Shown here piece by piece: positions 11,186-37,802 of a DNA stretch of 37,824 nt. The notes beneath the pieces were generated by a model, which was given only the letters and a program-made list of their open reading frames with translations, had not been told where the DNA came from and made no database searches. A program made the translations under genes and the position numbers. Numbering within the stretch: position 1 is the first letter of the stretch; every line of letters begins with the position of its first letter. This DNA comes from a virus: positions 1 through 37,824 of IMG/VR virus record IMGVR_UViG_3300049841_000065; one strand, written 5' to 3'.

Positions 11186-12100
11186 TCAGGGGTCCACGTT
11201 CAAATCACCGGCAATCGCGCCGCTGTCCAATGTGCTGCCACCTGCTGCCCGCACTTCCAGCGTGGCGTCAATGAATGATGACCCCACCGCGGTGCGGGTC
11301 CACACCCAGCGGCGCAGCGTGCTAATGGCAATCCAGCTGCCGTTCGCGCTGCTGCCGGAATCCGGCGATTGGCCGGAATTGATTGTCAGGCGCGCCTCGT
11401 ACCCATCGCCCACCGTGGTACTGGTCGGGCGGCCCCAGTTGTTAGTTATGTCCACATCGCTGCCAAACTGGCCTTGCTTAATGGTCATCGTGCCATTGCG
11501 ATTTATGGATACGTCGATATAGGCCGTGTCACCGTTCAGCACCGAATCCGTTAGCGTGGTCTGGTCATCCACCAGGACCGTGAACGGCGCGGCATTGCTA
11601 ACCGTGGGCGCGTAGCCTGTGAGGCCCAGGGCACCAGCGGCCGGCCGGATGGTGTCCTGGCGCAGCAGCGTTGGCGCGTAGCCCGTTAGGCTCAGCGTGC
11701 CAGCTGTGGGCTGCCTAATCGCTTGCTGCACCACGGTGGGGGCCGCGCCCGTGAGGGCCAGGGCGCCGGCGATGGGCAGGCGTGGCGTTTGTTGCGTGAC
11801 CGTGGGCTGGTAGCCCGCGAGCGCCAGGGCGCCGGCTGCGGGCTGCCGGCCGTCGCGTAGCGTGACCGTGGGCTGCGCGCCTGTGAGGCCCAGGGCGCCC
11901 GCGGTGGGCCGGATGGTGTCCTGGCGAAATAGCGTGGGCGCGTAGCCCGTCAGCGACAGCGTGCCGGCGCCGGTCGCAATGTTTGGCGAATTGCTCAGCA
12001 GGACAGTGGGCGCGTAGCCCGTGAGGCTCAGCACGCCCGCGGCTGGCAGTGGCGGCCCTGCGGGTTTGCTCCCCAGGGCGGCCAGAATTCGCAGCATCAT
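11186..12100 (-). CDS. Tail-associated protein with seven 22-residue repeats
   Basis: 304 aa. Residues about 18-170 are seven copies of a 22-residue unit with consensus P-A-A-G-A-L-x-L-T-G-Y-x-P-T-V. The C-terminal 130 residues form a beta-rich domain with W and G (DITNNWGRPTSTT). It follows the tail-tip gene with a TAATG junction, so it is likely a tail-tip accessory or receptor-binding protein. The repeat is shared with the 963-aa protein 18 kb away. Confidence 0.65.
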   Translation of the reverse strand: MMLRILAALGSKPAGPPLPAAGVLSLTGYAPTVLLSNSPNIATGAGTLSLTGYAPTLFRQDTIRPTAGALGLTGAQPTVTLRDGRQPAAGALALAGYQPTVTQQTPRLPIAGALALTGAAPTVVQQAIRQPTAGTLSLTGYAPTLLRQDTIRPAAGALGLTGYAPTVSNAAPFTVLVDDQTTLTDSVLNGDTAYIDVSINRNGTMTIKQGQFGSDVDITNNWGRPTSTTVGDGYEARLTINSGQSPDSGSSANGSWIAISTLRRWVWTRTAVGSSFIDATLEVRAAGGSTLDSGAIAGDLNVDP

Positions 12101-29237: not shown

Positions 29238-29833
29238 TTCGCACCCCTCCGGTTAATTGCAAATTGAATGTTTCGTTGTAACTCGCGCGCCCAATATTCC
29301 CTAACGTCCAGCGTTAGGGCCGCCTGCATTTTTTTGGTGGAGAAAAACTGCGGAATGGACGGGCCCACGGCCTTTTTAATGCCGACTCGCGTGGGCCCTG
29401 GTGGGTCGGCGCCCACCCTAGTGAAAACATGCCCGCCAAATTTCGCCACAAAAAAGGCTTTTTGCCCATTGCGCGTGTAAACCTTGCGCCGTCCGCCCTT
29501 TACCACCTTGAAACTGACGCCCCGTTTTTTCAGTGGGTTGGCGGCATAGTCCCGTATTCCAATGGGCTTGCCCTTCGCCCTGATTTCGAACCAGGCGCGC
29601 CCCAGGGCTAACGCGGTCAGCGTCTGTATTTCGCCGCTGCGTTTGTAGTAAATCGCCGCATCCACCACGGACTTTGGCAGGTTCACGCGCTGGCGCATGT
29701 TCTTGCTTAGGACGGATTCGCCATGCTTCGCCGTTCGGTCCAATGTGCGACCGATGACGCGCGGCAATTCCTTTCCCTGCAGCTGCGACAAATAGGCCCT
29801 GGCGCCCGATAAATCGGGCCTAACGTTTATCAC
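29234..29833 (-). CDS. Minor tail protein Z-like (tail completion)
   Basis: 199 aa. Prophage minor tail Z pattern: LPRVIGRTLDRTAKHGESVLSKNMRQRVNLPKSVVDAAI near the N-terminus (in segments), a basic middle and REYWARELQRNIQFAINRR at the C-terminus. The family connects tail and head in lambdoids. The GTG start overlaps the previous stop (GTGA). A perfect inverted repeat of the GTTAG motif lies inside at 29299-29319. Confidence 0.75.
   Translation of the reverse strand: MINVRPDLSGARAYLSQLQGKELPRVIGRTLDRTAKHGESVLSKNMRQRVNLPKSVVDAAIYYKRSGEIQTLTALALGRAWFEIRAKGKPIGIRDYAANPLKKRGVSFKVVKGGRRKVYTRNGQKAFFVAKFGGHVFTRVGADPPGPTRVGIKKAVGPSIPQFFSTKKMQAALTLDVREYWARELQRNIQFAINRRGAK
29299..29319. repeat. Perfect inverted repeat built from the GTTAG motif
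   Basis: CCCTAACG (29299-29306), spacer TCCAG, CGTTAGGG (29312-29319): an 8-bp perfect inverted repeat inside a coding sequence. It joins two copies of the abundant motif head to head. Confidence 0.7.
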
Positions 29834-30342
29834 TGATCCCGGACCGGCAGCACAATGACCGCCTCTTTATCCTCGCCGCTCGCCAGCGTGACCTGGTGTT
29901 TTATGTCGTAGCTGGTGCCCGACACGCCACCGGCCACGCGCGTGACATAGCGCAAATCCAGCGATGCGGCGCCGGACAATGTTAGGCCAGCCACCGCCGG
30001 CCAGGTGTTGCTGGCAATGGTAGAGCGTAGGCTGCCATTGCTCAGGGCTTCGGCCGTCCAGGTCACGGTGCCGTCCGTGACCGTGCCACCCACCACCGTG
30101 GGCCACCTGATTTCCGAATATTTGCGCCCCGAGGTGATGCCGGCCACGGTGCAGCGGTATTGCAGGCCGGTGGCGAATTGGCGCAGCGGGCGCACCAGGT
30201 CATTGACCTGGTACGCCGACCCAAGCCGGCGAACGTTGGCCAGGTAATCGTGCCAATCCACTTCCACGGGCACATCGTCAAATGACCGCTTGGCCTTCAC
30301 TTCAAGGTAAGGCGCGCCAATTTCGTCATTATCACAGGTCAT
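29830..30342 (-). CDS. Structural-type hypothetical protein
   Basis: 170 aa, beta-rich, with phrases common in phage virion proteins (VDWHDYLANVRRLGSAYQV, RYVTRVAGGVSGTSYDIKHQVTLASG). ATGA junctions at its start and near its end bind it to neighbours. No family recognised. Confidence 0.5.
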   Translation of the reverse strand: MTCDNDEIGAPYLEVKAKRSFDDVPVEVDWHDYLANVRRLGSAYQVNDLVRPLRQFATGLQYRCTVAGITSGRKYSEIRWPTVVGGTVTDGTVTWTAEALSNGSLRSTIASNTWPAVAGLTLSGAASLDLRYVTRVAGGVSGTSYDIKHQVTLASGEDKEAVIVLPVRDQ

Positions 30343-33940: not shown

Positions 33941-34234
33941 TTAGTTCACCCCCAGCCCTTGCCAGGCTGTATTTCCGTGGGCCGGTGGGCCGCCCTTCAT
34001 GTCCCTGACGCCATATTTGTACAAAAGTTTGTAAAAGTCGGTCCGGTTTCGGCCGGCGATTCTCGCCGCCAGCGACACATTGCCGCCGCAGTCCTGCATC
34101 AGCTGCGCCAGGTAGGTGTGGCCCGCCTGGTGCAGGTGCTGCGTGAAAGTCAGCCGCTGCACGGTACCGCTGCGGACTGGGTCGGCGCACTCGCCCACCA
34201 CTTGACCGGCAGCGTTGTTACCTTGCGCCATTGC
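33941..34234 (-). CDS. Fis-type helix-turn-helix protein
   Basis: 97 aa from ATG 34234. The central segment LAQLMQDCGGNVSLAARIAGRNRTDFYKLLYKYGV (in pieces, about residues 41-75) is the Fis/NtrC C-terminal HTH: hydrophobic helix, G-G-N-V, A-A, R-x-x-F-Y-K-L-L. No receiver or ATPase domain precedes it. AGGGG upstream supports this start; GTG 34270 is longer. Overlap with the secreted protein gene is 85 nt. It ends C-TAA-C. It may regulate late or host genes. Confidence 0.7.
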   Translation of the reverse strand, partial: AMAQGNNAAGQVVGECADPVRSGTVQRLTFTQHLHQAGHTYLAQLMQDCGGNVSLAARIAGRNRTDFYKLLYKYGVRDMKGGPPAHGNTAWQGLGVN

Positions 34235-34755
34235 TTGCCCCTGTACGTGAATGTAGGCGCCCCCTGGCACTCTAGGCCGATTGGGACAAAGCCCAGCATG
34301 GTGGTGCCACGCTGGCCTGTGGCGGTCACTGAAACCACGGGCGCCATGTTGATACCGATAACAACCGCCACCACCACATTGGTGGGCGGATTAGGCGCCA
34401 CCGCGCCAAAGGTCTTGCAGCCTTCCGCGGACCAGGCGCTGACCTGGCCGGCGGTGTCTCGGGTGCGAACCTGGAAACATGCCTGGCCGCCGGTAGCCGG
34501 TACCGTGCCCGCCAGCGTGCCGCCCGTGGCGCCGGCTGGCAGCGTGATGCCGGCAAACTGCGTGCAGGTGGTGCTGGCTGGCGCGCCGGTGGCCGTCCAG
34601 CGACTGCATTGCACGTCATAACCGGCAATTTCGCTGGCAGACAGCGCGCTGCCGTCCACCCTGGTGGTGGGCGGTGTGAACGTCAGTTGACCCGTGGCGG
34701 CCGCGGCCAGTTGCGCGCCAAACAGGGCGGCCAGCGTTAGGGTTTTTTTCATCAT
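34150..34755 (-). CDS. Secreted or periplasmic protein with signal peptide
   Basis: 201 aa. Clear signal peptide: MMKK, a hydrophobic core (TLAALFGAQLAA) and an A-A-A cleavage region near residue 20. The mature part is beta-rich with cysteines (VQCSRW, CTQF, CFQVRTRD) and fibronectin-like phrases. It is an unusual gene within a tail cluster and might be a moron or lysogenic-conversion protein (inference). Confidence 0.65.
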   Translation of the reverse strand: MMKKTLTLAALFGAQLAAAATGQLTFTPPTTRVDGSALSASEIAGYDVQCSRWTATGAPASTTCTQFAGITLPAGATGGTLAGTVPATGGQACFQVRTRDTAGQVSAWSAEGCKTFGAVAPNPPTNVVVAVVIGINMAPVVSVTATGQRGTTMLGFVPIGLECQGAPTFTYRGKQWRKVTTLPVKWWASAPTQSAAVPCSG

Positions 34756-36221: not shown

Positions 36222-37697
36222 CTAATCCTCTGAAATTTCCGCGCCGCTGCGCAGTATGTGGTTTATGAGTCCGTCGCCGTAAACTTCCAACTCGATTTCG
36301 TCGCCCAAGTATTTCACCAGGTCCATAAATTCCTGCGCCTGGCACGCCATCCACGGATGACACTGGAAAATGCGCCCGCCCGCGGTGACATTGACCACCA
36401 GGGCGTCATCATTTTCCGGCTGCGCGTAGGCGTGATGCGCCGCGGTGTTTTTCTCGCGGCCATCCACCTGGCTGTAAATGTCGGCCTGGTCCCGTAGGCA
36501 GGAATCAAACCCGAACAGGTGGAACCGCTTAAAACCTAACATGCGCAGCAGCGGAATGGCCCGCAGCATCACCGTGCTGCCGCCTGGCACAGTGTACCAA
36601 ACCGGAAAGGTGGCCATAAGGTCGTCGCGGATATACTCCGCGCCGGTGTGCCACAGGTAAGTCCTGTCCTTGGGCAGCCCTTCCAACACGGACGGGTCCA
36701 CCTGGCTGGCAATCAAATATTTGCAATCGTCAATAACGGGCTTGGTAAACCGCGCATTGAAGGGCCGCGCATCCACCACCACCTGCGCGCTGGGCTTCAT
36801 GCCCTGGTCCAGGGCCCAGTTATAAGTCCCGTTCAGCGTGATCAGCTTCACCCCTTCCTGGCGCAGCTGCTTGATGGTGTCCACGTAGTCCGCGAGACTG
36901 GGCCCGCCGGCCAAAATCATCACGTCCACATCGTTGGGCATGTGCGGCTCCGCCTGCATCCACCCGCCGGCGATGTTGGCGCGCACGTTGGCCAGAATGG
37001 TGGCTTCCTCTACGTTCAGCGTGCCCGCGGCCACTATGTCCTTGCCAGCGGCCCAGGCGGTCACGTAGAACAGGCAATGGGTGCCCGCGTCATGCGAAAA
37101 ATGCACCAGGCAGTCCAGGGCCTGCAGCTTTTGCAGCCACCAGGCAAAGGGCTGCACTGTTAGGTGCAGCGTTTCGCCAATCAGGGCGCCCAGGTGGTCG
37201 GGCTCGCAGCTGATTTGCAAAAAAAGATGCTGGGCCGCTTTCAGCATGTTGCGCAGCACCCGGTCCACGTCCGCCGTGGGGATATGTTCCAGCACATCGG
37301 TGCAGAAACCATATTCCGCCACCACCGGGCACGGGTCTGTTAGGTCATGCTGCGTGAATTTCAGCATGTGCGCCTGGGTGGTCAGCGCGTTTTTTATGTC
37401 CGGGTCCAGGCAGTTGGCCGTGAAGTCCAGCATTTCCACCTTGAGCCCACCGAACAGCGCGAGACCTAACGCGCCGCGGCCCGTGCCGGTGCCAAAGTCA
37501 ATAACCGTCGCCCCTGGTTTCGGGCGCGCGATGCCCAGGAAAACCTGCGCCACATGCTCACCGGGCGCCACCTGGCGATATTCCGGCCGTTCCCACATAG
37601 CCGCGTACTTTTCCACTTCCGTTTTTGGCTTCGGTGGAATCGGTGTAATGGTGACAGTGGGCTGCGCGCCGACAAAGCCGGCAATTCCGCTGGTCAT
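36222..37697 (-). CDS. Methyltransferase fused to DUF115-type domain
   Basis: 491 aa. Residues 1-20 include one degenerate unit of the 22-residue repeat (VGAQPTVTITP). Residues about 30-230 are a class I SAM methyltransferase: VIDFGTGTGRG at 65-75, an acidic D91, and DVLEHIP at 134-140. From about 258 a DUF115/Maf-like domain follows (ILAGGPSLADYV, ITLNGTYNWALDQGMKPSAQVVVDARP, LFGFDSCL), related to proteins that act on sialic- or pseudaminic-acid-type sugars. It may modify a surface or virion glycan. It is the first late gene, 16 nt after the tRNA, with AGGTT before ATG 37697. Confidence 0.75.
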   Translation of the reverse strand: MTSGIAGFVGAQPTVTITPIPPKPKTEVEKYAAMWERPEYRQVAPGEHVAQVFLGIARPKPGATVIDFGTGTGRGALGLALFGGLKVEMLDFTANCLDPDIKNALTTQAHMLKFTQHDLTDPCPVVAEYGFCTDVLEHIPTADVDRVLRNMLKAAQHLFLQISCEPDHLGALIGETLHLTVQPFAWWLQKLQALDCLVHFSHDAGTHCLFYVTAWAAGKDIVAAGTLNVEEATILANVRANIAGGWMQAEPHMPNDVDVMILAGGPSLADYVDTIKQLRQEGVKLITLNGTYNWALDQGMKPSAQVVVDARPFNARFTKPVIDDCKYLIASQVDPSVLEGLPKDRTYLWHTGAEYIRDDLMATFPVWYTVPGGSTVMLRAIPLLRMLGFKRFHLFGFDSCLRDQADIYSQVDGREKNTAAHHAYAQPENDDALVVNVTAGGRIFQCHPWMACQAQEFMDLVKYLGDEIELEVYGDGLINHILRSGAEISED

Positions 37698-37802
37698 GGT
37701 CTAACCTGTTAGGTGGTAGCGGCGGCCCGAATCGAACGGGCAAATCCTGTGAATGAAACAGGCAGTTTTCCGTTAGCTTACGCCGCAAAAGAAAAAGGGC
37801 CG
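37677..37802. repeat. Right copy of terminal direct repeat (circular overlap)
   Basis: Exact copy of bases 1-126, including a second copy of the tRNA at 37714-37787. In a circular map the two copies are one locus, which gives a genome of about 37,676 bp. Confidence 0.9.
37714..37787 (-). tRNA. tRNA with CAT anticodon, second copy in the overlap
   Basis: Same sequence as 38-111, carried by the right terminal repeat. It is the same locus in the circular genome and should be counted once. Confidence 0.85.

Follow-up and report, generated by a model that had tools for sequence, protein, structure and literature searches.

Maf flagellin glycosyltransferases begin with a degenerate Rossmann-like domain that is weakly similar to methyltransferases, continue with a central Maf_flag10 domain (the name given there to pfam01973) and end in a helical C-terminal domain; two Maf enzymes take CMP-Kdo instead of their native donor (PMC11339370). 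Phage-encoded glycosylation of virions is described for mycobacteriophages, including cluster O phages, Che8 and Corndog, in PMC11600133 and PMC12363180. In its passage citing Freeman 2023, PMC11600133 describes for cluster O an O-methyltransferase gene with three glycosyltransferase genes next to it and reports that the enzymes modify capsid and tail tube; a passage of PMC12363180 describes glycosylated virion proteins in the cluster F phage Che8. Our search of the open-licence literature found no description of phage DUF115/MptE-like proteins. The family PF01973, whose present name comes from archaeal MptE, was earlier called DUF115 and MAF_flag10.

We analyzed a 37,824-base stretch of viral DNA (the window) in which a methyltransferase and a Maf-like domain are encoded as a single polypeptide (Table 1). 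As the passages above present it, the mycobacteriophage system consists of separate genes, whereas the window phage has one polypeptide with a predicted Maf-type fold, a comparison of gene organization in which fold family was considered for the window protein only. Because the cluster O glycosyltransferases and O-methyltransferase are reported in that passage to act on the virion (PMC11600133), the function we propose for the fusion has a precedent. The sequence-only reading knew of no such fusion as a described phage function. This stands insofar as the fusion was not found in the named phage records searched, where the sole match was to the methyltransferase half, in MW202621, but it is qualified by the cluster O precedent and by A0A6J7X5Q0, a deposited uncultured-phage protein that has both halves.

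Table 1. Features of the fusion gene and its surroundings in the window
Feature	Position	Strand	Remarks
Fusion gene	36222..37697	-	intact ORF, ATG start, 491 aa
Leader, aa 1-22 (MTSGIAGFVGAQPTVTITPIPP)	37632..37697	-	flexible tail containing a single degenerate unit of the kind found in the repeat proteins
Class I SAM methyltransferase domain, aa 23-215	37053..37631	-	motifs DFGTGTGRG, CTDVLEHI
Maf-like DUF115/PF01973 half, aa 216-491	36225..37052	-	motifs AGGPSL, PSAQVVVDAR, GGSTV...LGFKRFHLFGFDSC, HHAY
tRNA-Met (CAT)	37714..37787	-	just upstream of the fusion, within the contig end repeat; second copy at 38-111
phrog_644 protein, 155 aa	35751..36218	-	directly downstream of the fusion; phrog_644 1.4e-11; candidate acceptor
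Weak baseplate/virion-structural match, 328 aa	34755..35741	-	phrog_20556, 1.5e-9
201-aa protein	34150..34755	-	signal-peptide-like start, without family match; the 'secreted protein' of the sequence-only reading
Repeat protein, 963 aa	30339..33230	-	unit '..ALSLTGYAPTVTV..'; second candidate acceptor or docking partner
Fibre-tail adaptor, weak match	29833-30342		E 1.3e-7
Second, shorter repeat protein	11186..12100	-	unit as in the 963-aa repeat protein; after the tail-tip gene

A methyltransferase and a Maf-like domain in one polypeptide

The fusion comprises a leader (aa 1-22), a methyltransferase (aa ~23-215), a helical linker (aa ~218-245) and a Maf-like domain (aa ~246-487), and the structure predicted for the whole 491-aa protein has a mean pLDDT of 79.5. 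We confirmed that the ORF joins a methyltransferase to a PF01973 domain, as the sequence-only reading had proposed, with family matches and predicted folds for both. In hmmscan, methyltransferase families matched aa 57-186 (PF13489, 2e-5), and phrog_24759, annotated 'methyltransferase', matched aa 36-193 (E 4e-10); with the N-terminal half scanned alone, PF13489 reached E 4.4e-6, exactly at the family cut-off. This half has the predicted Rossmann fold and the GxGxG SAM motif of class I SAM methyltransferases. DFGTGTGRG is nearly invariant among relatives, the SAM-binding motif is intact in those that retain the domain, and LEHI is also kept. The model superposes on many solved small-molecule methyltransferases with Z scores of about 18-20 (up to 19.6), and since so many fit about equally, the fold does not reveal the substrate.

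In the C-terminal half, PF01973 ('MptE-like') matched aa 255-403 with E 4.8e-18 and 66 bits against a gathering cut-off of 34.6, providing the DUF115 profile match that the proposal required. Modeled alone (pLDDT 79.4, pTM 0.79), this half is predicted to share the fold of the central Maf_flag10 domain of Maf flagellin glycosyltransferases, aligning with Maf 5mu5 over 229 residues (Z 21.2, rmsd 3.3, 17% identity). Lower structural matches were the MptE HPPK 8sd5 (Z 14.8), SteA (12.1), a GT29 sialyltransferase (9.2) and the GT42 enzyme CstII (9.1); no GT42/GT29 sialyltransferase profile matched the window protein, whose fold similarity to these enzymes is about Z 9. By sequence profile, 5mu5 gave E 2.9e-5, from the linker helix through the core, and 8sd5 just 0.015.

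PF01973 includes the pyrophosphokinase MptE, and a Z of 14.8 is substantial, which we count against the glycan function proposed below. The half could instead be an MptE-like pyrophosphokinase acting on a pterin, a nucleoside or a tRNA-type small molecule, with the methyltransferase as its partner; it shares both Pfam family and core fold with the archaeal 6-hydroxymethylpterin diphosphokinase MptE of M. jannaschii (8sd5). We consider this quite improbable, as Maf is nearer in fold and in profile E-value, the linker helix aligns with Maf, the phage half, unlike MptE, is fused to a methyltransferase and lies in a virion-gene context, and a bacterial relative is found among glycan genes. Comparison of the models (Z 21.2 versus 14.8) thus leans toward the Maf-like character, rather than a pterin kinase, that had been suggested from sequence.

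The phage enzyme resembles Maf (5mu5, from Magnetospirillum; CbMaf) in its Maf_flag10 domain, linker helix, GPS[LI] motif and Rossmann-then-glycosyltransferase order. It differs in having an intact methyltransferase, not PF20157: a scan of its N-terminal half to E 10 listed methyltransferases and no Maf_flag10_N (PF20157), whereas a real Maf N-terminus does match PF20157. It also lacks the C-terminal helical bundle, ending near the match to Maf residue 503, and its gene lies beside phrog_644 and virion genes, not beside a flagellin acceptor. We considered homology between the methyltransferase half and the Maf N-terminal domain and do not claim it: the order agrees, but hhalign comparison of the two was not significant (E 0.18), so common descent there is only a suggestion.

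Both halves are under purifying selection of about the same strength, with median pairwise dN/dS among relatives of 0.13 for the methyltransferase and 0.11 for the Maf-like half, from the few pairs (7-9) with usable dS. This near equality argues against one half being catalytically dead and serving as a scaffold only, as the degenerate Rossmann N-domain of Maf perhaps does. Maf indeed has a Rossmann-like N-terminal domain with weak methyltransferase similarity in the same order (PMC11339370), and one phage relative manages without the methyltransferase; with the SAM motif intact wherever the domain is present and the N-domain comparison not significant, we nevertheless regard a dead half as very unlikely.

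Relatives and the virion-gene module

Scanning IMG/VR with the fusion protein gave 22 loci, and scanning with a six-row alignment gave 358, 80 of which were kept. About 100 viral loci encode the whole-length fusion, at 53-64% identity to the window protein, and the fusion is therefore neither an assembly error nor a chance product; its absence from relatives, which would have spoken against the sequence-only reading, was not what we found. Nearly all of the extracted proteins (94 of 99) are 470-479 aa long; the rest deviate because of the start chosen, an extension, the end of a contig or the loss of a domain. One of them (L023) keeps the leader and DUF115 half and has no methyltransferase, so at least one relative can do without methylation. 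Another (L103:2196-4169) has an extra N-terminal part of ~190 aa of no assigned family, and lies directly after a P22-type portal gene.

The two activities also occur in separate genes. The uncultured siphovirus MW202621 encodes a 191-aa methyltransferase, 34% identical to that of the window, and a 277-aa neighbor with weak matches to PF01973 (E 0.0022) and to a sialyltransferase PHROG, phrog_4603 (UOF79447 and UOF79509). Like the fusion, the pair couples a methyltransferase with a DUF115-like protein, here in the capsid region, but as two genes, the methyltransferase first and the DUF115-like protein second, whose ORFs share 4 nt and which come immediately after the major capsid gene. Since some phages have the two activities in one protein and MW202621 has them in neighboring genes, they probably serve one pathway. 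A structure match to the uncultured Caudovirales phage protein A0A6J7X5Q0 ('Methyltransferase domain containing protein') spans both fusion halves, but at 714 aa this protein is longer than the window fusion and about 14% identical to it. Methyltransferase-like folds are frequent among viral proteins annotated as glycosyltransferases.

In bacteria, no fusion passed E 1e-8 in 398 Pseudomonadota genomes, an alignment-based scan of genome contigs confirmed no fusion homologue, and a search of plasmids returned none. The Pseudomonadota genomes contained three DUF115-only matches at that threshold, in two genomes and without a methyltransferase, which are the closest bacterial ones found. One (L130) is encoded between genes for a GT9 heptosyltransferase and an O-antigen ligase (Wzy_C), and another (L129) upstream of a TPR-like ORF that, judged by eye, is possibly a TPR-type glycosyltransferase. 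These glycan-gene surroundings favor sugar transfer over pterin chemistry.

Within the window, the fusion is the most upstream gene of a minus-strand run whose far end holds tail-tip and repeat genes. Upstream of it are the tRNA-Met and a terminator-like hairpin, an arrangement that agrees with its proposed place as first late gene, as far as gene order can indicate; no sigma-70-like site was found directly upstream. The run begins with the fusion, the phrog_644 gene, the baseplate-like protein, the 963-aa repeat protein and the fibre-tail adaptor match; it continues with terminase, portal, a major head protein with head-protease matches and a major tail protein match, and ends with the tape measure, a 1625-aa tail/fibre-type protein and the second repeat protein. 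Pfam and PHROG matches, together with the conserved phrog_644 adjacency, thus bear out the virion-gene setting. The narrower claim that the fusion sits with fibre genes holds loosely, as its constant neighbors are phrog_644 genes and a repeat protein, and the clearest fibre link is the adaptor match.

At 95 of 100 loci the fusion has a phrog_644-type gene no more than 120 nt upstream, and at 84 of the 88 loci with room for one it has such a gene no more than 120 nt downstream. Many of these loci belong to close relatives, so the counts do not represent independent events; the loci without an adjoining phrog_644 gene are among relatives outside the main cluster. phrog_644 was present in all 15 fusion-bearing viral records (the L103 record itself having been found via phrog_644) and in 0 of 14 control genomes. 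As for other enzymes occupying the slot of the fusion, a scan with the window's phrog_644 protein added one locus, L103, which again holds the fusion. The portal belongs to phrog_21, which we take to be lambda-type, in the window and to the P22-type phrog_156 in L103 and L024; neither family was found in the twelve remaining records, which include several fragments. Since portal family differs between carriers, the module seems to have passed from one phage lineage to another.

Several further features of these loci deserve mention. Homing-endonuclease-like ORFs, recognized by eye, directly follow the fusion in four diverged relatives, at L025:2391-3299, L031:7613-8428, L038:6275-6922 and L103:4178-4708, and in L038 and L103 the phrog_644 gene lies behind this ORF. 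Two of the 15 records also encode, in their structural region, a second, GT2-like glycosyltransferase (L008:87-728), which the window lacks. Cheoctovirus mycobacteriophages share a phrog_644-like gene with the window phage, located just behind minor tail protein genes (MT114167.1, 23774-24211).

The leader, the repeat proteins and a proposed function

We built a repeat-unit PSSM from 54 units of five repeat proteins. The window leader, IAGFVGAQPTVTI, scored 19.1 bits, compared to 7.4 for the best unrelated window protein, and its score was reached by 0 of 2000 shuffles; 14 of 16 proteins outscored their own shuffles at p 0.025 or better. Both window repeat proteins scored higher, at 36 and 33 bits. 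Leader residues 1-21 have pLDDT under 50, as expected of a flexible tail. The two repeat proteins have a ~22-residue unit (..PAAGALSLTGYAPTVTV..), and similar proteins occur in many relatives; no Pfam family accounts for the repeats in either, and neither has a PHROG match.

Resembling a unit of these proteins, the leader may be a docking element for the acceptor of the enzyme. It could also dock the fusion protein itself into the particle, as a minor virion component acting on the envelope of the next host at infection. The likeness of the leader to a virion-module repeat unit, its flexibility in the model, and the extended L103 protein encoded after a portal gene would all fit. However, both predicted activities require cytosolic cofactors (SAM and a CMP-sugar), and we give this explanation little credence.

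We lean modestly toward an enzyme that glycosylates a protein of the phage particle and methylates the glycan, in that presumed order. The protein would be a bifunctional, probably cytoplasmic enzyme acting on the phage's own particle protein in late infection. Its Maf-like C-terminal half would transfer an acidic sugar from a CMP-activated donor onto a Ser/Thr of the acceptor, and the N-terminal half would carry out SAM-dependent methylation of the sugar, or of the acceptor beside the sugar. The host would supply the donor, CMP-Kdo or a nonulosonic acid; a search of the 15 viral records, among them several fragments, gave no CMP-sugar synthetase (PF02348; NulO or Kdo activation). The acceptor would be encoded nearby, the likeliest candidates being the phrog_644 protein or the repeat protein, both putative virion proteins, and the leader, itself a version of the unit in the repeat protein, may guide the enzyme to it. 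The earlier idea of glycan decoration with possible methylation is thereby narrowed to a putative virion target, with the host surface, which it had named as well, less favored.

Modification of that surface (LPS or O-antigen) by Maf-like sugar transfer and methylation, for example to block superinfection, would be in keeping with normal LPS components, which include Kdo and acidic sugars, and with the LPS-type cluster (GT9, Wzy_C) that holds L130, which is among the nearest DUF115 proteins found in bacteria. Phage seroconversion genes usually lie away from structural genes, however, and the fusion gene is inside the virion module, beside phrog_644 genes. Its leader motif is common to the repeat proteins of that module, and no flippase partner was seen near the fusion. 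We think a host-surface target unlikely.

A broader extension of the virion-directed function, which we rate as fairly improbable, is that the fusion represents a widespread, one-polypeptide 'Maf with a live methyltransferase' of environmental phages, which uses its own version of the repeat unit to locate the acceptor, covers the particle in a host-derived methylated acidic sugar and may resemble the ancestral bacterial Maf. The N-terminal Rossmann domain of Maf would then be a decayed methyltransferase. Should the virion-directed function itself be right, sugar decoration of phage particles would not be confined to mycobacteriophages but would occur in many uncultured environmental phages, carried out there by another type of enzyme that works in the manner of flagellin glycosylation and adds a methyl group. 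The two-activity enzyme would then have an acceptor open to testing (phrog_644), and might account for a gene family of unassigned function that is common in virion modules.

Genome ends and a recurrent CTAAC[AG] motif

Bases 1-126 of the 37,824-base record recur exactly at 37677-37802, 22 bases before its end, in a repeat that holds the tRNA-Met, and beyond this repeat the 3' end carries an inverted version of the same hairpin. Based on the exact 126-base repeat followed by the inverted hairpin, the contig probably represents a circular molecule of about 37.7 kb. The nearest relatives of the terminase are from Roseobacter phages, at 54%.

The window (1-37824) contains 101 copies of CTAAC[AG], mostly after C or G, evenly spread and with 77 on the minus and 24 on the plus strand. 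CTAAC was observed 111 times compared to 32 expected, and TGTTAGGT 14 times compared to 0.3; the enrichment was not clear in the relatives checked. From its sequence statistics the motif appears strongly selected and is a candidate primase, modification, nicking or recombination signal. It arises by synonymous codon choice: CTA is used before ACR in 34 of 72 cases versus 42 of 576 elsewhere (Fisher 2e-16), and GCT/CCT before AAC in 19 of 47 versus 87 of 1416 elsewhere (6e-11).
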